Origin: Daucus carota subsp. sativus
Lineage: Eukaryota > Streptophyta > Magnoliopsida > Apiales > Apiaceae
Length of the DNA: 64,000 nucleotides
Assembly: GCF_001625215.2 (NCBI RefSeq)
Contig: NC_030389.2
Coordinates: 780,930 to 844,929, forward strand
Reading direction: 5' to 3'
Positions 22,480-61,295 of this stretch are shown here, in pieces. Positions within the stretch are counted from its first letter, which is position 1, and each line of letters starts with the position of its first letter. Under the pieces are notes generated by a model. The model saw nothing but the letters and a program-made list of their open reading frames with translations. It did no database searches and had not been told where the DNA came from. A program made the position numbers and the translations under genes.

Positions 22480-22531
22480 TCTGTTGTTTCTCATCTGAAA
22501 AACTCAGAAGAATCTAGTTGCTAACAATTCG

Positions 22532-24943
22532 ATGACAACAACAACAAATCTTGATCATATTAGCCATGAGCATCCACTGATCCTCATCGACGATTTTGAT
22601 GCTAGTAGCATTGCAGCACCACTTGTTTGCGGCGTGTGTGAGATTCCAATCATAGGAGTCTGTCATGCATACACATGTTCTCAGTGTTCATTTTTCCTGC
22701 ACAAAAGATGTGCAGAATCACCAAAACAAATCAAACACCCTATGCACCCGCAACACCAGCTCGGCCTCAGCACGGACTACAATCACCTGGTACATCCTGA
22801 TCCCTCTAATAGCTTTCTATTGCCTCGGACTTACATCTGTTGTGCAGGTTGTACCCGGGAGATCAATCTTAGTATGTGGGTTTACTCTTGTAAATTCTGT
22901 CATTTTGAGATGAAGATTCCGTATTTTAAGTCTCCTTTGACTTCTTATCAATTTGCCTTGTGCATGAGATGTGCCGTGATTGAGCCAGTGCTTGGTCATG
23001 AAGGGCACCAGCAGCACCCCTTAACATTATTGCGCAGAAGAGCTTATTTCTGGTGTAATGCTTGTGGAACGGAGGCTTGGGACATTTCTTCGTATACATG
23101 TCTTACATGTCATTATTGGATCCACAGCAGTTGCGCTGTTTCCCCTCACACAATCAAACTCCGAGTTCACGAGGACGATACTCTGCAGCTAATCTATTCT
23201 ATTCCAGAAATATATAGAAGGTTCACCCGCCACTGCCCTATCTGCAGATTGGGAGTTAATACAGAGAATTGGGCTTATTTTTGCGAAAACTCTGGATATT
23301 TTGTTCACATCACATGTGCTACTGCATTATTATCGTAAGCTCCTCATTCTCCTCAGTTTTTATCTGTGTTCAATAAAAGTTTGCTCCGCTGTAACTGATT
23401 AAGTTTGAGCATTTGTTTGTATTTAGATTTTGGCAAGTGTCGTGTCTGCCTAAAAGGACTGGCTAAGTCGTCGAATATTTAGTTCAGCTTTACAGTTGTT
23501 AGTTTTAAACATTTTATGATATGGATTTCATTTGATATTCTGAATTTGAACAAATAATCTGTTTGAGAATATGGATTTGGATATCAAATGAAATCCAGGA
23601 CATTCAAATATTAGTATAAACCTGAGAATTTGAAATGACAACTCAAATCCTGTCATTTGAAATGAAATGCACGTTTCCAAACACCCTCTTATAGTAATTG
23701 CCTTTTGATTCATTTACACGGTTCAATATGTTTCAGGTCTGGGAAAAATGTGATTAAAACCGAAGATGATGATGGGCAAACATATCCTGATCTGATGCAA
23801 TTTCCACTGGCCAGCGCAAATCCATTAATAGCGAATTTGATAGCAGAGTACCAGTCAGGTAAGCCGGCTAATCCCACTATGCAAAAAGAAGAAGGCGAAA
23901 ATGAAACACATGATGCAGTAATTTATCATTGGAGCCACAGGAAGCATCCCCTGATTCTTTTGGAAGAACTCAAGAATGCTGATAATAGTGATAATGATGA
24001 GAGTGATATCAACAATCATATCGATGAGATGTTAATTTGTGATGGATGCATTGAACCAATCTCAACAGAGTTATATAAATATTACTACGGCTGCATTGGA
24101 TGCAATTTTTTCCTCCACACGTCTTGTGCCAGTCACTTGCCACTGCAATCTTCCCCGGGAAAATGTGTATTCGATCCTCAACACACTCTGAAGCTCCAGA
24201 ACAACAATGGTCATGACATAACCTTCTGCACTACCTGCTCCACATTAACCAATGGATTCATGTACAAGTGCATAGAATTTTTTCCCCAAACTCAGATTGA
24301 TCTCAGTTGTTGTCTGGCGCCTCGCAGACTCAAACATGAGTACCATAAGCACCCCTTGCTTCTGCGTCCCTCAACATCAAAGAACTGCAACGCGTGTTTA
24401 TCAGAAACTAATCCAACATTTGAGTATGGATGTGAAACTTGCAGTGACATCCAGATTCACCCTCATTGCGCTCTGTCATTCCCGAAAGAATTCTCTCACA
24501 GATGGGATTCTCATTCCATTTCCTTGATATATCCCCCTATCTACTACAAGGGCTTAAGATACTGTGAGTTATGCGAGCTGGAAGTAAATCAAGAAGCTTG
24601 GTTGTATCATTGTCGCGAATGTGATCAAAGTTTTCATCCTTTATGCATTCGACAACCTCACAAAGTAAAGCTTGGCAAAACAATTTTGCCATCGACTCAT
24701 AATCCTCACTCACATACCTTAACATTAAGGATGGTGGACAAAAACTGGTATTCTGAACGTGTTCATAAATATTGGTCCTGCAGTGTGAAGCGTGAGGGGA
24801 TAATTCATGCATCAGCAGAGCGAGATTTTTACTTCGAATGTGCGGGTTGTAATTATCAAGCATGTCTGGTTTGTACACGCCTCCATGCTCTTAGCCAGTC
24901 AGGCAGTCACCATTGTGAATTGGAAGTCAGTCGAAGTCATTAA
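22532..24943 (+). CDS. DC1 (cysteine/histidine-rich C1-like) domain protein
   Basis: Two exons, 22532-23334 and 23737-24943, make 2010 nt and 669 aa. The protein is a string of plant DC1/C1-like zinc-binding modules, each seen as HP..L followed by C..C, 10-14 residues, C..C and H..C (for example LVCGVCEIP...YTCSQCSFFLHKRCA and LICDGCIEP...YGCIGCNFFLHTSCA). An acidic low-complexity linker with EEGENET and DNSDNDESD separates two clusters. There is no signal peptide or membrane helix. The family is large and plant-specific; some members act in defence, hormone or cell-death responses, but no role can be given here. The splice keeps frame (TC|GTAAGC, TTTCAG|GTCTGG). Confidence 0.88.
23527..23690. 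repeat. Inverted-repeat relic in the DC1 gene intron
   Basis: ATTTCATTTGATATTC at the left is mirrored by GATATCAAATGAAAT near 23577 and again by CATTTGAAATGAAATG near 23653. This is probably a decayed MITE. It has no coding content. Confidence 0.4.
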
Positions 24944-26054
24944 TAAGCCAAAATTACTCAAACAGCCTCTTCTTAAGAAGTATACATCGGGGACGGGAAC
25001 GCGACTTTAATGCTCCTAAATATTATATTCCATCCGGGTTGTTTAATTGTTTTATATTGGAAGACAGTGGTTCGGCACATATTTTAAGACTTTTATTAAA
25101 TATAGTGTGATAAATTATTTTAATTACTTATGAATCTATACTTTATATGCATCTTAAAATACAAGTAAATAATTGAAAAAAAATATAAAAAAATGAGAAA
25201 GAGAGGGGGGGAATAGTTTGAAACTCATTTTTAAGATTTAACATCATTGTGCCTCAACTAAGTAGCAAGCTTCGGCTCGATCCTTTATCGACTTTGTTGA
25301 TCAAAGTTTGATAACCATGGACAACTTGATTTGATAATTCTCTGTACGGAGACATGTTAGTATACTTTGATAAAGAGATGGACCATGCATTCTATTAAAT
25401 TAAACAAATTCAGATAAAAATTATTTATTTTTAAATAAATCATATATTAATATTTTGAAAATAAATGACTAATTTCCATAAATAGAAAATGTTGTGCATT
25501 TATTAAATTAAATATTAAATATACTAAGATAATATTATATAAATATGAAAACATTTTGAAATAAGTTCTTATATTATCGAATAAGTCCAAATATAAAGGT
25601 TCTGTATCTTGTAATTTGAAACTTATTTTGTGCATCAATTCGGGGTCTCCTAAAGACACAAATTCAAAAATATCAAATCATATACGAACAATCTAATCCT
25701 TAATTACCCCAATTAATTAGGGGACACTAATTTATTGCATCCAACAAATTAATTAGTGGCGTATCTTTAATAGACTTATTTCTTCTCTTGAAACTGTTCT
25801 ATGTTTGAACCTAAAAAAAACTAAATAAGGAAATTAGGCTGTGAATATTATATCAGAAGTGGACGATCCCGAATCCTATGTTTGTGATCGAATCAGGTGC
25901 CATAATATAACCTTAATTCCATAAAACCAATTCCATAAAATAACCTTGATTCCACAAAATCAATTAACCCTCATTCAACGAAAAATCGTATAATTAGAAT
26001 CCATGATTTATACAACTGCCTTAACTACACTGCATAATCGTTCCTCACGTAGGC
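24944..26054. other. Intergenic region before the multi-CLE gene
   Basis: AT-rich. A Stowaway-like fragment lies at about 25025-25220 (TCCATCCGGGTTGTTTAATTG ... GAGGGGGGG in separate blocks). Just upstream of the promoter (25895-25970) the phrase ATAACCTTRATTCCA/TAAAACCAATT is repeated two to three times. No gene is supported. Confidence 0.45.
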
Positions 26055-26063
26055 TATAAATAG
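26055..26063 (+). promoter_or_regulatory. TATA box of the multi-CLE gene
   Basis: TATAAATAG. An in-frame ATG at 26071 lies too close to this box to be inside the mRNA leader, so the next ATG, at 26110, is the better start. Confidence 0.65.
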
Positions 26064-26109
26064 CCTTTGTATGCTTGAGTGCAATGCATTGTATTACAAT
26101 ATTCTAAAG

Positions 26110-26895
26110 ATGGCTCCTAATAATTCAGTTGCTGCTAAACGCTTGATAATCATTCTGCAGATTATCCTAGCTGTTTTCTTATCCTTTTCTGCGAATTCAG
26201 AAGCACGCCTTATGATACATGATAGAAGCAGCCTGGCTCTTTTTCATAAGCTGGGGTTTAAGTTGCCTGTGCACAATACTGGAGCAGCAAAGAGACTTGT
26301 GCCATCCGGACCCAATCCGGAAAAGAGTCCGGGAACACCGCCTGGTGTCGTAGGTGCTGGTGAAGTGAAGAGACTCGTTCCATCTGGACCCAATCCAGAG
26401 ACTAGCCCAGGAACACCGCCACCAGGTGCTGGTGAAGTGAAGAGACTCGTTCCATCCGGACCCAATCCAGAGACTAGTCCTGGAACACCGCCACCAGGAG
26501 CTAGTGAGTCTAAAAGACTCATTCCAACCGGACCCAATCCAAAGACTAGTCCGGGAACACCGCCACCAGGTGCTGGTGAAGCGAAAAGACTCGTTCCAAC
26601 TGGACCCAATCCGAAGAAGAGTCCAGGAACACCGCCGCCAGGTGCTGGTGAAGTGAAGAGACTCGTTCCATCCGGACCCAATCCGAAAAAGAGTCCAGGA
26701 ACACCGCCTGGTGTTGTAGGTGCTGGTGAAGTGAAGAGACTCGTTCCAACCGGACCCAATCCGAAAAAGAGTCCAGGAACACCGCCTGATGTTGTAGGTG
26801 CTGGTGAAGTGAAGAGACTCGTTCCATCTGGACCCAATCCAGAGACTAGTCCAGGAACTCCGCCACCAGGAGTGCTAGGTGCAACTCTGCCGTAG
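26110..26895 (+). CDS. Secreted precursor with eight tandem CLE-like peptide units
   Basis: Intronless, 261 aa. A signal peptide (hydrophobic IIILQIILAVFLSFS, likely cut after NSEA) and a ~40-residue leader are followed by eight repeats of KR-L-[VI]-P-[ST]-G-P-N-P-[EK]-[TK]-S-PGTPP. Units start at 26290, 26368, 26440, 26512, 26584, 26656, 26734 and 26812; each is 24 or 26 residues, the last 27. The core RLVPSGPNP is identical to the first nine residues of the CLE9/CLE10 dodecapeptide, which in plants is cut from a secreted precursor and sensed by LRR receptor kinases. The last three residues differ (ETS, EKS, KTS or KKS instead of LHN/LHH). There are no cysteines. Repeats are very alike in DNA, suggesting recent expansion or gene conversion. 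Function is inferred; it could instead be a structural Pro-rich protein. Confidence 0.75.
   Translation: MAPNNSVAAKRLIIILQIILAVFLSFSANSEARLMIHDRSSLALFHKLGFKLPVHNTGAAKRLVPSGPNPEKSPGTPPGVVGAGEVKRLVPSGPNPETSPGTPPPGAGEVKRLVPSGPNPETSPGTPPPGASESKRLIPTGPNPKTSPGTPPPGAGEAKRLVPTGPNPKKSPGTPPPGAGEVKRLVPSGPNPKKSPGTPPGVVGAGEVKRLVPTGPNPKKSPGTPPDVVGAGEVKRLVPSGPNPETSPGTPPPGVLGATLP
26290..26892 (+). repeat. Coding tandem repeat, 72/78-bp unit x 8
   Basis: Units 2-5 are 72 bp, units 1, 6 and 7 are 78 bp with an extra VV before GAGE, and unit 8 is 81 bp. Length changes are all multiples of three and the reading frame is kept, which suggests selection on the encoded peptide. Confidence 0.95.
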
Positions 26896-28652
26896 ATCAT
26901 ATCCAGAAGGACTAGCCGTAGAATGGTCTTATGATGTAATGTAGTATTTTTAGTTCCATAAAGTCATGCATGAGATTATATGATTATAATTTTAATGATT
27001 TTGAAATAATTTGTTCTTGCCTTATCGACCAATAAGCGAGATTTTAAGTTAGCAAAACAGAAGTAATCATCAAATCTTTTAACCTACTGAAAACATAAAT
27101 GAGCTACTAAATAATGCTCGACCATGTTTTGTACAGATTTCATACTTAACTTTATGTAGTTATATCTCAATTCTCAACCATGTAATTGATCAGACATAGA
27201 AATGGCAAAAAAAATACCACAACCAGGCAAGAGATGATGATAATTGTTGGGAAAAATCATTTAGTCGCTTGTTTAAAGTGAATTAAACATCGATTAGGAA
27301 AATCGTATTATGATAATTGACGTGCATTGTCCCTGATTTGATTTGGTTAGTTTAATCATGTAATCACGTTTACTCCATGGACTCGTAGTCTATTAATTTA
27401 TAAAGATACTAAAATAATCAGTTTTTTCTTTAAAAGTTACAAGTCGAATATGGCAAGGGATGAAAGATGGTATTCAACCGATCTTTCATTTTTTTTGAAT
27501 AAGATTTTAAATATTACAATCAGAGAAAATGACATCAAATAGCAGTTTATAATTCAAAATACTGAAATCGTGTCGCGTTTTATGTTTAAGACATAAACAC
27601 AATATAATATAGCGTTTTCTTTCGAAAATCAAAACGCTTGATTATGGGATTAATAAGAGATATAGTGTCCTTTCTCCCCACTCTCTATGTAACATCACAC
27701 GTATTAAAAGAACGTATGGATGATGGACTTTATAAACACAAGCACATAACTAATATATAATAATTTGTTAATATTTTTGGAAATGGATTGTTAGGTTTGG
27801 TACGTATTCGATCGTGGGTTTTGGAATTTTCTACTCTCTAGTCGTAGTACACTAGTACCGGTATATTATAACATTGACCTTAACTTTCAAAAGATCAGAA
27901 GTCTTTTTAACGAAAAAGAGATAACCATAGTTTCTTGTCTTGGCGTCACTAGCTTTACGTGTGCATCTGGAACATCTTTATTTGCGTTTGATTTTTATAA
28001 ACTTATCCTCCTCACACCAATTTTGGTCTTTCAAAAGATCAAATATGGATATACATGGCATTTAGGTGCCACCGAAAAAGAAATTTCTGGACAAACAAAT
28101 TATATTTTACACAACTGCACATGAATTTCTCCTTACCAAACAACCCAATATTAGACATGGAGAGGAAACTACCAGGTCCTTTAGCTTAACTGTGTTTTAT
28201 AATTTGACTTGCAAAGAAAAGTATAAGAACTTTAGCAACAAAACAAGAAGATTGTAGCCCACATGGCAAGGGATGAAAATAAACACAATACAATATAATA
28301 TTTTATTCCAAAAATCAAAACACTCGATTACATGCTATTTTAAAAGAGATCCTGTTTTAAAAAAAGAAATAACTATTTTTTAATTTTAGAAGAAGTTCAA
28401 AACATATGAAAACATATTGATTACATCTAAAAATATAAAAATATATTTCAAATATTTTATTTAATATCTACAGAAAGATTAAATTCTAGACCCTTCCCAT
28501 CATGACAATATAATGCTAACGATACAAAAGAAAAAACTAGAAAGATACAAAGCAATGGGAAAGCACCATGATTGGCCCTATATTTCAAAACTCTATTCAC
28601 CACCTTTTACATTATTTTCCACATCCTCCTACACTTTCACCATCCTCATCTC
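26896..28652. other. Intergenic region between the multi-CLE and glucanase genes
   Basis: AT-rich with no gene. Two segments resemble each other: 27447-27660 and 28262-28350 share ATGGCAAGGGATGAAA and, further on, AACACAATAYAATATA followed by AATCAAAACRCTYGATTA. This is an old duplicated repeat, family unknown. Confidence 0.5.
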
Positions 28653-55117: not shown

Positions 55118-56088
55118 ATGGCTTTTGGATTTGCATCCTACAACTTTCTCATATGTGCTCTACTTGTTTTACAGGTAATACATGTCGTTGATATTATATA
55201 TAAATCTGATCATGTTTGTGCCATCTTTGCAATATTAAAACATTTATTTGATTCTTTTATGTATGACTTATAATCTTGATTTTTTTTTAAATTTGATCAC
55301 AGTGTGGATATAGCATCAGTGCTCGGATGACCATTGAACGAAGAATGTATCTCGAAGAAGAAATTGATGATGATTTAATAAACATCACAAATCCGAAACC
55401 TTCTTATAATGTTTGGTTTACACCAAAAGATCTTTACAAGGGTTTTACAAAGCCTGTTTATTTTGAAAAAGAAGATCCAGCAAAAATGCCTTATTTTCTC
55501 TCCAAAGAAGAAGCTGATGCAATCCCATTTGCTATACCTGAACTTGATAACATACTCGCCCGTTTCTCTATTTCCAGGAACTCCCCACAAGGCAAAGCCA
55601 TCGCATATACAATTTATAACTGTGATTTGCATCCCACAGGCCACATGATTGCGAGTTGTGTTTCGTCGCTAGAGTCCATGCTTGATTTAGTCCAAAAGTC
55701 TTACGGACCGAATACCAACTTTGATCTCTACACATCAGTCATTCACCATTCAGAAAATACTCCACTTTTACAAAACTACACTTTCCTTGACACTCCTTAC
55801 CAGATTCCAACACAAAAAATGATCGCTTGTCACCCAATGCCTTATCCGTACGCGATTTTCTACTGTCATGGTCATTTAGATGGTTCCACAAAAGTATATA
55901 AGATTCCGCTCGGCGGTGAATATGGAGATAGAGTTGAAGCTATAGCTGTTTGTCATGCGGATACTTCTGGTTGGGATAAAGACCATATTTCTTTTAAAAT
56001 GTTGCATATGAAGCCTGGGAGTGGGCCTGTTTGCCATGTTATTCCACAAAATAATTTTGTGTGGATTCCTACAATTTCTGTTCAGTAG
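55118..56088 (+). CDS. BURP-domain protein (USP/RD22-like)
   Basis: Two exons, 55118-55174 and 55303-56088, give 843 nt and 280 aa. Exon 1 is nearly all signal peptide (MAFGFASYNFLICALLVLQ). A short segment with an FTPKDLYKGF-like stretch leads to the BURP domain, which has the exact spacing CH-X10-CH-X27-CH-X25-CH (CHPMPYPYAIFYCH, then VCHADTSGW, then PVCHVIP). BURP proteins are plant-specific and secreted; members include the unknown seed protein USP, stress-induced RD22 and the polygalacturonase beta subunit, and newer work links some to copper-dependent cyclic peptide formation. There is no long repeat region, so this is a short USP-like type. Its precise role is unknown. A short Asn-rich loop is visible (QNYTFL), with a possible N-glycosylation site. 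Confidence 0.92.
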
Positions 56089-56830: not shown

Positions 56831-57237
56831 TAGTCCGATCTTTATTGAATCAACAAGGTAGTTACAGTAGTTGCAAATCTCTCTCTCTCTCTTAAACCCT
56901 AGCTTGCAAAAACTCTCAAACCCTCTCTTCCTTTTCTAGCCACAGTCGGAGGTTCCATCGATTTTCTCCGATGAAAAACTCTGAATCAGTTAATTTCTCT
57001 TTATTTGTTCTTATTTTCTCGATAATACTCCCTAACAGATCTGTACTTGGATATTAGATCTACTCAATTTTCAAGATTTTGATTTGGTGATGAATCAATT
57101 GGGATGACTGCGATTCAGTTTTAGCCATTTCTGGTATCTACATATATTTATATTCGATAAAATAAGGATTGTGTGAAATGACCCCACGACAATGGTATGA
57201 GTTCAAAATCTTTGTTCTTATTGTTTTTAAATGTATT

Positions 57238-60200
57238 GGGTTGGGTAAACCACATACAATTCGCTTCTTAAAAGAACTTACCCATCAAATAAAGCCTAAT
57301 ATTATTTTCCTGTCTGAAACTCTATCAAAGCAAAATAAAATAGTTGAAGTTTGTAAAATCCTAAATTATGCAGGTTGTTGGTCGATTGATGCCCAAGGTC
57401 GTAGTGGGGGTTTGGCTCTTTTCTGGAAAAATGAGGGAGGATGTGAAATAAAGGGAGGAGGTAGACATTATATTGACTTTGAGGTTGTAAATGATCAAGT
57501 AGGGAGATGGAGGTATACTGGTTTTTATGGGTGTCCAGAGCGAGGGAGGAGACAAGAATCATGGGATATATTGAAGGAGTTGGCAGCGAGGTCGAATCTG
57601 CCATGGTGTATTATCGGGGATTTTAACGATATGATGAGTGCGGATGAAAAAAGAGGTGGGAGACCTCATCCGCTTCATCTGCTTCAAGGTTTTGTAGATG
57701 TAGTGAATGAATGTGGGTTGAGGGATTTAGGTTATGTGGGTGATAAATATACCTGGGAAAGATCTCGTGGGAAGCGGAACTGGATTCAAGAGAGACTTGA
57801 TAGGGGTCTTGCTAATCAAGCCTGGTGTAATTTATTTCCTCATGCAGAGGTGCAAACTTTGGAAGTAGCTACGTCTGACCACTTACCTTTGCACCTGTAT
57901 CTGAAAAAACAGGTTTATAGACCTAAGGAACGTAGATTTAAATTTGAGAATTCTTGGCTTCGAGAGAAAGATTGTGAAGGGGTTATTCGTAATGGTTGGA
58001 GTGAAGCAGGATGGTTGGAAATTGTTGACAAGGTGAGGGTGTGTAGTATGCGTTTGCAGGAGTGGGGGGGTGGTATTGCTTCTGAGTACAAGCAGCAGGG
58101 TAAAGCTTTTCGCGAGAGATTACGAAAATTAAGGTCAAGAAGAGATACATGTGGTATAAATATGTACAATGAAGTTAGATGGCAGTACATGAATTTATTA
58201 GAGAAACAGGAGGTATACTGGAAGCAACGAGCAAAAAATTTCTGGCTGCGGGAAGGAGATAGTAATACACGTTTTTTTCATAAGTTTGCTTCTGGGAGGA
58301 AAAAATCAAATCAGTTGCAAAGGATCAAGGATGTGAATGGTGTTTGGAGAGAGACAAAACAGGAGGTTCAGGAAGTCGTGGAGAATTATTTCTCTAATCT
58401 TTTCACAGCAGGGAACAGGGGGGAAAGTTATCGGATAGAGAGATTGTAAAGCAAGTATCGGAGATCGAAAACGAGAGTTTGATAGCTGAGGTTACATTGG
58501 AGGAAGTAAAAGCTGCAGTCTTTTCTATGCACCCGGACAAATCACCAGGTCCGGATGGGCTTAATCCTGCGTTTTTTCAATCTTTTTGGAATGTGGTTAG
58601 GGATGATGTGGTTCAGTTTTGCCAGCAGTACATGGAAAAAGGTGAGCTTCCTGAAGGTATAAACCACTCACTTATTTGTTTGATTCCAAAAATTAAAGCT
58701 CCGCAAACTATGTCTGATCTTAGACCTATTTCACTTTGTAATGTGTTGGTGAGAATTTTGTCTAAGGTTATGTCGAATAGGTTAAAAAGATGCTTGGGAT
58801 CAATTATATCGGATAAACAGAGTGCTTTTATAGAAGGGCGTTTACTTACAGATAACGCAATGTTGGCGTTTGAAATAAATCATTACATGAAAAGGAAAAC
58901 TCAGGGGCAAAATGGGTGGGCTGCTCTCAAAATAGATATTTCTAAAGCTTATGACCGTTTGGAATGGGATTTTATTTATAACATGATGGTGAAATTTGGT
59001 TTTCATGAATTATGGATATCACGTATAATGAAGTTCCTAAATTCGGTTTCATATAGTTTTTTGCATGATGATGGTGATTTTGGTAACATTTTGCCTCAGA
59101 GGGGATTACGTCAAGGTGATCCTATTGCACCATACATTTATATAATGTGTGCGGAAGGGTTGAGTGCTATGATCAGGAGAAGTGAACAAGTTGGTTTGCT
59201 ACATGGTTGTAAGGTAGCCAGAGGAGCCCCAACAATTTCCCACCTACTATTCGCTGATGACTGTTATTTTTTCTTTCGTGCAAATGCAGATGAGGCAAGA
59301 TTAATGAAAAGAATTTTGGATCGGTATGAGCATAACTCGGGTCATATGGTTAATTACAACAAGTCAGCTGTTACTTTTTCGCCTAACACCACGGAGAATA
59401 GCAGAAATGAGGTGTGTCATGAGCTTAGTGTTCGAGAAGCTACAACACCAGGTCGGTATTTAGGCATGCCAATGCAGGTTGGGAAGAATAAAGTGGAAGA
59501 ATTTAATTTTCTAGTGGGAAAAGTTGATCAGAAATTGCAGAACTGGAACAATCAGACTATCTCAAGAAGTGGTAAAGCTATATTGTTGAAGACAGCAGCA
59601 CAATCTGTACCAAATTTTTGGATGCAACTGTTTTTGGTTCCAAACACAATTTGTGACAAGATAGAGAAGCGTATGAATGCCTTCTGGTGGGGAAAAAGTG
59701 GAACAAATGGTGGAATAAAATGGATGTCATGGGATAAAGTTTGTACGGTCAAGGAAGAAGGTGGGTTGGGATTTTAAAAATTAAAGGACTTTAATATTGC
59801 AATGCTAGCTAAGCAATCATGGAGATTGATGGTGGAATGTAACCCTATAGTTAGTCAATTTATGAAAGCACGGTATTACCCAAAGTCAGATTTTTTAAAT
59901 GCTTCATTGGGTTCGAATCCAAGTTATCTTTGGCGTAGTATTTTGGCGACTCAAGATACGATGAAACGGGGAATGCGTAGGAAAATTGGTAATGGTCTGA
60001 CAACTACGGTTTGGAAGGTGCCATGGCTCCCTGACTTGCAAAATGGTTATCTTACAACCGAATTATATGAGCAGTTGCAGGATATTAAAGTGCAGAGTTT
60101 GTTAGCTGAAAATCAGAAGTCCTGGGATGTTGAAGTTGTTTCAGACTTGTTTACTGATCGTGATAAAAAGCTCATTCTGCAAATTCCTATTCCTATCCGC

Positions 60201-61295
60201 GACAAAGAGGATTCCTGGTACTGGGCTCTAGAAGATAAGGGAGTTTTTTCTGTCAAAAGTTGCTATAGGAAGATTCGAGGGGAGTATGATTGTGTGGATC
60301 GAGTGTTTTGGAAAAGAGTGTGGGGTCTGCAATTGCCGGGGAAGATGCTTAATTTCTTATGGAGGGCTAGTGTGAATGTTCTGCCAACTGCAGTGGCTTT
60401 GCAAACTAAAAGAGTTAACGTCAACGCCGAATGCTCGTGGTGTCATGTAGCGGTGGAGAATGCAGTTCATACGTTATTTGAGTGCAGCATTGCTCGAGAG
60501 GTATGGAACTCAGTTGGTCTGCAAGATGTTTTCCGAGTAATGAACAATGATACGGTCATGACGGTGCTTAAACGAGCCATTAATATAGGTACACGGGATC
60601 AGTTTATCATGGTAGCAGTGTTGTGTTGGAGTTTATGGTCGAGAAGGAATAAATGGGTGTGGGAAAAGGTGAATACATCGGCGTTTGGAATTAAAGCAAT
60701 GGCTTTAAATCTGGTAGCTGATTGGAGAAGAGCTAGACAAAATGATGAAACAACCCGAGGTACAAGTACTGGGCACCGTAAAACATGGATAAAACCACCA
60801 CATGACTGGATTAAAATTAATGTTGACGCAGCTTATCGTGTAGGAGGGGATAGTATTGGTGTTGGGTGTGTGGTCCGTGATAGTACTGGTAAGTTTCTTC
60901 GAGCCAGAAACAACCTGATGTATGGTACATCTCAAGTCCGCGAGGCAGAAGCATGGAGTTTGAAAGAAACTATTGAGTGGGTGAAAAGCTGGAGAACTAC
61001 AAAGTGCATCTTTGAATCAGATGCCAAACTACTGGTGGACGCATTTCAAGTGGATAGAGGTCGATCAAATTTTGATACTATTGTGGAAGCTTGTAGTGAT
61101 AATCTTAAACACTTTGAGGAAGTGTTAATAGTGTTTGCTAGTCAATCTGCGAATAGCATAGCTCATGAGTTAGCTCGGGCTGCACATTCTATGTCAGGTC
61201 CCATGGAGTGGTTTAATACTGCTCCTGATTTTATCTCATGTAATATTGATTTAGAGTCTCTTTAATATAAGCAAGAACCTTTTACTCAAAAAAAA
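57238..61295 (+). mobile_element. 5'-truncated L1-type LINE, young
   Basis: About 4.06 kb. The 9-bp direct repeat AAATGTATT stands at both edges (57229-57237; 61296-61304 after the poly(A) run). The insert opens exactly at GLGKP of the endonuclease, so ORF1 and the first residues of the endonuclease, with its catalytic Asn, were never copied. Parts in order: endonuclease (GDFN, ATSDHLPL), reverse transcriptase (58479-59777; DKSPGPDGLNPAFFQ, FADD), zinc-finger zf-RVT region (about 60270-60500) and RNase H (INVDAAYR, GCVVRDSTG, about 60800-61240). Two visible lesions: a frame change at a G-run near 58419 and one in-frame stop at 59775-59777. Such few breaks suggest recent insertion. Confidence 0.88.

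Follow-up and report, generated by a model that had tools for sequence, protein, structure and literature searches.

A carrot gene (Daucus carota subsp. sativus) encodes eight head-to-tail units, each of which begins with a CLE-type core and continues, in place of a canonical CLE ending, into a conserved SPGTPP tail. The gene lies in a stretch of 64,000 nucleotides of contig NC_030389.2, here called the window and numbered from its first letter, and it belongs to a family of four loci in whose units both core and tail are constrained. Judging from the sequence, we see about an even chance that its product is a secreted polyprotein from which extended peptides with a CLE core are released to act on a CLE-class receptor.

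Layout of the precursor and its gene family

The predicted coding sequence (26110..26895, plus strand) is apparently a single exon. The frame runs uninterrupted from the ATG at 26110 to a TAG at 26893-26895, encodes 261 amino acids plus stop, and shows the synonymous-biased variation described below. It begins with MAPNNSVAAKRLIIILQIILAVFLSFSANSEARLM, a signal-peptide-like N-terminus as judged by eye (26110..26205), which comprises a basic AAKR, the hydrophobic stretch LIIILQIILAVFLSF and ANSEA, the likely cleavage region. This segment is kept in the four paralogues, in two of them with a deletion, its typical layout again being a by-eye judgement. It is followed by a non-repeat pro-region, RLMIHDRSSLALFHKLGFKLPVHNTGAA (26206..26289), in which RSSLALFHKLG is identical in all four paralogues, and then by the eight units. 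Across the non-repeat part, pN/pS is 0.14-0.47 (six pairs among the four N-termini).

A TATA box (GGCTATAAATAG; 26052..26063, plus strand) stands 47 bp 5' of the ATG and is identical in the four aligned promoters. Plant transcription usually initiates about 30 bp 3' of the TATA box; an in-frame ATG at 26071 would thus precede the transcript, and 26110 is the likely start codon. Directly 5' of it lies a tiny out-of-frame ORF (26084-26107, plus strand; seven codons, ATG to TAA); whether the transcript includes it would depend on where transcription begins. We also considered coding on the opposite strand, where a 218-aa ORF spans 26244-26900, and rejected it on the signal peptide, the TATA box and the promoter rather than on codon data: over the 18 codons of the unit, the plus frame has 23 synonymous and 6 nonsynonymous changes and the minus frame 20 and 8, the latter bias arising because the third positions of both frames coincide. 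The minus-strand ORF is probably a by-product.

In the translated frame, unit 1 reads KRLVPSGPNPEKSPGTPP followed by GVVGAGEV (26290..26367, like all units on the plus strand). Units 2 and 3 share KRLVPSGPNPETSPGTPP, followed by PGAGEV (26368..26439) and PGASES (26440..26511), respectively. Unit 4 is KRLIPTGPNPKTSPGTPP with PGAGEA (26512..26583), unit 5 KRLVPTGPNPKKSPGTPP with PGAGEV (26584..26655), unit 6 KRLVPSGPNPKKSPGTPP with GVVGAGEV (26656..26733) and unit 7 again KRLVPTGPNPKKSPGTPP, here with DVVGAGEV (26734..26811); unit 8, once more KRLVPSGPNPETSPGTPP, runs on through PGVLGATLP as the C-terminus (26812..26892). In general, a unit opens with KRL[VI]P[ST]GPNP, a variable pair of residues leads on to SPGTPP, and a Gly/Ala/acidic spacer closes it; this pattern recurs every 24-26 aa until the last unit continues into the C-terminus; TRF reports the array as 26290-26870, with period 72, 7.8 copies and a score of 655. 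The eight motifs occupy the last 201 residues of the precursor, a layout other than the single motif at or near the C-terminus that is usual in CLE precursors, to which multi-CLE precursors are known exceptions.

The preliminary description had proposed eight CLE-like units after a signal peptide, and all eight are there, behind an N-terminus that is signal-peptide-like. The start it gave them, R-L-V-P-S/T-G-P-N-P, is found in seven of the eight, the remaining one reading RLIPTGPNP. Its match to the CLE9/10 nonamer is exact in five units (RLVPSGPNP), while the other three carry T and/or I (RLVPTGPNP twice, RLIPTGPNP once). Residues 10-11 are EK in one unit, ET in three, KT in one and KK in three, with Ser next in all. 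Finally, the proposed spacer SPGTPP(P)G(VV)GAGE holds for SPGTPP throughout, but the rest is more varied than stated (GASES, DVVGAGEV).

The assembly totals 441,086,747 bases, in nine contigs of 33-65 Mb plus two small ones (250,368 and 127,500 bases). A protein-level search of it gave four family loci. Besides the window gene with its 8 units these are C9b (C9:43.82 Mb, minus strand; 7 units), C4a (C4:48.434 Mb, minus strand; 12 units, much of the pro-region missing) and C4b (C4:48.440 Mb, minus strand). The last has a broken frame with five core matches: three intact units, a break in the fourth, and a fifth core in another frame. N-termini of the other members are 85-91% identical to that of the window gene. 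About 470 bp 5' of the ATG (25640..26109, plus strand) are shared by all four loci; identity in the pieces that match is 73-88%. This promoter holds a 33-bp direct repeat (25900-25965, plus strand; two copies, 87%) about 145-210 bp before the ATG, and related sequence is also seen in the paralogous promoters. The interval that separates the C4 genes holds a promoter-only fragment (L010 4830-4978, minus strand; 83% identical, query 3-154), next to which we recognised no coding remnant; it is perhaps a lost fifth copy of the family.

The last units of the three intact genes end similarly (PGVLGATLP, PGVLSATRLG and PGLLGSTRLP), and the S/T residue of the core is T in all 12 C4a units and S in all 7 C9b units. 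Together, these features suggest that an existing array was duplicated and then homogenised within each gene. When a single-copy ancestor was sought in the assembly with the 70-aa N-terminus, the four matches at E up to 10 all belonged to the family.

For the precursor, NCBIfam gave no match and Pfam-A none past the cut-off (one match at E 3.4); two matches among solved structures (E 0.6 and 0.68) were judged to be chance. With its repeats, the precursor is probably disordered. Pattern matches in bacterial and archaeal genomes (124) and in viral contigs (12) yielded no confirmed relative. The repeat family, its SPGTPP tail and its variation pattern were not found in the open-licence literature, and no carrot CLE survey was among the matches listed there. 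Elsewhere in the window, two adjacent C1_2 (DC1-type) zinc finger genes (22499-23338 and 23795-24943, plus strand) lie directly 5' of the precursor gene; a BURP-domain gene (55297-56088, plus strand; E 3.4e-63) and a LINE-like element (57166-61265, plus strand), with endonuclease, reverse transcriptase, zf-RVT and RNase H-like domains in successive frames, were also seen.

The CLE core and the CLE motifs of the same genome

The assembly was searched for the core with the DNA-level pattern R-[L/I/V/M/F]-x-P-[S/T-like]-G-P-[N/D]-P, the C-terminal side being left unconstrained. It gave 40 matches in 441 Mb, 32 in the repeat family and 8 elsewhere; the reversed pattern, as a control, gave none in the same 441 Mb. 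All eight matches outside the family end in LHN or LHH, with no demand made on the end by the pattern; seven of them terminate precursor-length frames and one sits in a 43-residue frame. Five CLE precursors of this genome carry the same decamer as the family, KRLVP[ST]GPNP.

A second pattern, GP[ND]P-x-H-[NH] with x as any NTN codon, gave 25 matches (control: 1). From these we kept as reference the 22 frames with at least 30 in-frame residues before the motif and dropped 3; two of the 22 are short (43 and 69 residues) and seven carry 1-31 residues after the motif. A CLE score was built from the 17 distinct motifs among them and applied to one unit type, the ET type. Its residues 1-9 scored 29.0, within the 23.2-30.9 of canonical motifs, while its residues 10-12 scored -6.4 against +8.6 to +11.8, a difference to be read with the bias of a reference gathered via H-[NH]. 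When the unit was shuffled 300,000 times, a score of 29.0 was never attained, and the lowest canonical score was attained 7 times. Given the empty reversed search and these shuffles we rejected artefact or chance as the source of the resemblance; the proposed tandem precursor with a CLE-type core is supported.

The non-canonical ending was also borne out: LHN or LHH closes none of the 30 intact family units, whose residues 10-12 are [EKA][TKI]S (AI in one unit). The dibasic KR proposed as a cut point before each unit is not supported in that form, since its K occupies position -1 and the CLE motif itself already begins with its R. As K stands at -1 in 17 of the 22 CLE-motif frames, the K|R junction appears to be the natural head of a mature peptide and not an upstream dibasic site.

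We then compared the pro-regions of three family members with the 22 frames (66 comparisons; C4a was left out as much of its pro-region is missing). The best z was 3.3, a value reached by 0.7% of shuffles and unsurprising among 66, and the next was 1.7. Furthermore, a stretch EIDPRYGV precedes the motif in the five decamer-sharing CLE precursors and is absent from the family's pro-region. With no convincing pro-region relation and this stretch missing, common descent with the CLE genes finds no support here, and we set aside the idea that a CLE precursor in this assembly gave rise to the family. The family thus shows the CLE features of residues 1-9 and lacks L/I-H-N/H at residues 10-12; because this C-terminal feature was tested and is absent, we do not file the family under CLE, although it may still work like one.

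These observations bear on a different kind of hormone. The precursor could be HypSys-like, or another multi-copy source of hydroxyproline-rich secreted peptides in defence or growth, with a receptor of its own and a CLE-like start acquired by convergence. HypSys precursors give several short Pro-rich peptides from one secreted protein, as is proposed here; they are not known to carry a CLE core. As described in PMC11371470, a tomato HypSys precursor with a signal peptide gives three peptides of 15-18 aa, similar in size to the conserved stretch of about 17-18 residues that ends in SPGTPP. The loss of CLE anchor residues 10 and 12, and the unconvincing relation of the pro-region to CLE-motif frames, would fit such an origin. 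Against it, the decamer is identical to that of five CLE precursors in this very genome, the core search matched only the repeat family and frames ending in LHN/LHH, and HypSys peptides, in the account of the same source, are described in Solanaceae and Convolvulaceae. We regard such a separate hormone as unlikely, though a serious contender.

Variation among the repeat units

Variation was assessed by minimum-change counts over units from the four genes of this one genome. Thirty-one units could be read in frame, a set outside which the C4b core in the other frame falls; 30 have the full stretch of 18 codons, the broken fourth unit of C4b being dropped. CLE residues 1-9 show 11 synonymous and 2 nonsynonymous changes (V/I and S/T), residues 10-11 show 4 and 4, and SPGTPP shows 7 and 0. 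Excluding residues 10-11, the remaining 16 codons have 19 synonymous and 2 nonsynonymous changes (12 and 2 in the window gene alone), for a rough binomial P of 1.5e-8 if 0.70 of changes are taken to be nonsynonymous under neutrality; the repeats evolve in concert, so that the units are not independent, and gene conversion inflates such tests. Segregating sites in these 16 codons fall at 12 third, 3 first and no second positions.

In the 17 units that are 24 aa long, by contrast, the spacer with its six codons shows 3 synonymous and 8 nonsynonymous changes (Fisher P 0.0006 against the core). As this contrast between core plus SPGTPP and spacer is internal to the unit, the selected peptide seems to span both core and tail. 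Residues 10-11 differ less clearly (P 0.03 against the core and 0.08 against SPGTPP alone, a modest contrast), so that their freedom to vary is only suggested; their variation comes from the window gene and C4a, while C9b has ET in 7 of 7 units. Position 12 is Ser, and SPGTPP is present, in 30 of 30 units. As to where the peptide ends, two forms had been proposed, one closing with ETS, KKS or KTS and one extended through SPGTPP; variation leans to the extended form (7/0 versus 4/4), again with a modest contrast.

The same 30 units from four genes speak to whether Pro/Gly content alone is conserved, a doubt attached to the original proposal. It did not materialise: R, L and N are invariant in 30/30 units, V changes only to I and S only to T. 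This weighs against a proline-rich structural or antimicrobial wall protein that stays uncut and whose CLE resemblance has no signalling meaning, as does the failure of shuffled units to match the CLE score. The richness in Pro and Gly, the head-to-tail repeats, the changing copy number (7, 8 and 12) and the gene-by-gene homogenisation of units would all suit such a protein, and the single Pfam-A match at E 3.4, with no family above the cut-off, says nothing either way. On balance, we find a wall protein rather unlikely.

The units might also be trimmed to a dodecamer of CLE length (RLVPSGPNPETS and similar), which would bind CLE9/10-type receptors weakly or block them. CLE peptides have 12-13 residues, and position 12 of the family's units is always Ser; losing the usual end should weaken anchoring and co-receptor contact, and the variation makes only a modest case for a longer peptide. 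However, a peptide ending at residue 12 leaves unexplained why residues 10-11 took 4 nonsynonymous changes next to an invariant SPGTPP, and position-6 variants tried as CLE antagonists were often weak or unaltered rather than antagonistic in the experiments reported in PMC4526918. We hold trimming to a dodecamer to be improbable; our estimates for it and for the extended peptide overlap, because the receptor class is common to both.

Related peptide systems and a possible mode of action

The closest comparison is with the CLE9/10 class (RLVPSGPNPLHN), which the family resembles in residues 1-9, in K at -1 and in its signal-peptide-like N-terminus. Where that class ends in LHN, the family has [EKA][TKI]S and SPGTPP, and it further differs in its many copies per precursor and in a pro-region without EIDPRYGV.

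Precursors with two to nine CLE motifs have been published for rice, wheat, maize, Medicago, Lotus and soybean (PMC2254619, PMC5570945, PMC4526924, PMC6747155, PMC12677920). Examples given there are CLE75 and CLE76 of Oelkers, MtCLE14, LjCLE32/33 and GmCLE37a/b, with up to nine motifs in Lotus, and their processing in plants is described as little known. They are described as combining a signal peptide with regularly spaced motifs, much as the window gene has a signal-peptide-like start and regular units; against 24-26 aa here, repeats measure 24-35 aa in legumes, and most of those in the Oelkers table measure 25-37 aa. The family shares this regular spacing and lacks a recognisable CLE end on each motif: 14 of the 18 motifs considered from the Oelkers table (PMC2254619) end in HN or HH, as opposed to none of the 30 intact units, which carry a conserved Pro-rich tail. 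A partial parallel is rice CLE76, whose four motifs R[KE]VP[TS]GPDPITSDPPP (Table 2 of PMC2254619) have no LHN; as in the ETS-P units, the non-LHN end has T-S at 11-12 and a proline-rich stretch next. It differs in a hydrophobic Ile at 10, in its core (R[KE]VP.GPDP) and in being a grass gene, and the relation shown is limited to the motif. Many motifs and a missing LHN are thus each precedented.

A CEP-related or CLE-CEP hybrid peptide is very improbable: the P-x-x-S-P-G stretch in the second half of the unit recalls the CEP end (residues 7-15 most commonly [PS]GHSPG[VI]GH in PMC4197245) and CEP genes can hold more than one domain, but agreement is at 4 of 9 positions by eye, the closing GH of SPG[VI]GH is PP in 30 of 30 units, and the N-terminal half is CLE-like.

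Returning to extended CLE-core peptides, we envisage the following course. The precursor would probably enter the secretory pathway through its signal-peptide-like N-terminus, its prolines would probably be hydroxylated, and it would probably be cut between the K and R that head each unit and trimmed inside the Gly/Ala/acidic spacer. In this way the array would give several peptides per precursor, near-identical and of the form RLVP[S/T]GPNPxxSPGTPP, about 17 residues or slightly longer. They would retain residues 1-3, which govern receptor choice, and P-S/T-G-P-N-P, with the Leu-His-Asn/His end, which serves receptor anchoring and co-receptor contact, swapped for the conserved SPGTPP tail. 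Such a peptide would most likely be an altered ligand of a CLE-class LRR receptor kinase of the BAM/CLV1 or HAESA/HSL type.

Published structural work helps to place these residues. In TDIF-TDR, as reported in PMC5383425, the first three residues dictate specificity, residues 8, 10 and 12 form a conserved C-terminal anchor whose end is capped by Arg421/423, and losing the contacts at positions 10 and 12 strongly weakens binding. For HSL1-CLE9-SERK1, PMC8847575 reports that the last two residues contact receptor and co-receptor, mostly via the backbone, and that BAM1 requires the first three residues of CLE9. The repeat family retains residues 1-3 and 8 and has lost residues 10 and 12, which is why we favour a CLE-class receptor and, as its ligand, an extended peptide whose tail is new; with the contacts of positions 10 and 12 gone, an ordinary CLE receptor might also fail to bind it.

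More speculatively, the family could be a lineage-specific hormone of two modules, a CLE address (RLVPxGPNP) and a new, conserved SPGTPP tail, each intact precursor supplying 7 to 12 copies. Such a hormone might bind CLE receptors while bypassing the customary co-receptor contact, or recruit another partner, and so naturally antagonise or reroute signalling of the CLE9/10 type; we think this unlikely as it stands.

In the usual view of CLE receptors, the first residues of a ligand give its identity, and its C-terminal residues provide general anchoring and co-receptor contact. A family in which the first residues are under purifying selection, the usual end has been dropped and a new tail is fixed would be a natural test of that division. 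Activity of its peptides would mean that tandem precursors serve plants as a bulk source of altered CLE ligands; if they are inactive at CLE receptors, the family would represent a new family of peptide hormones.
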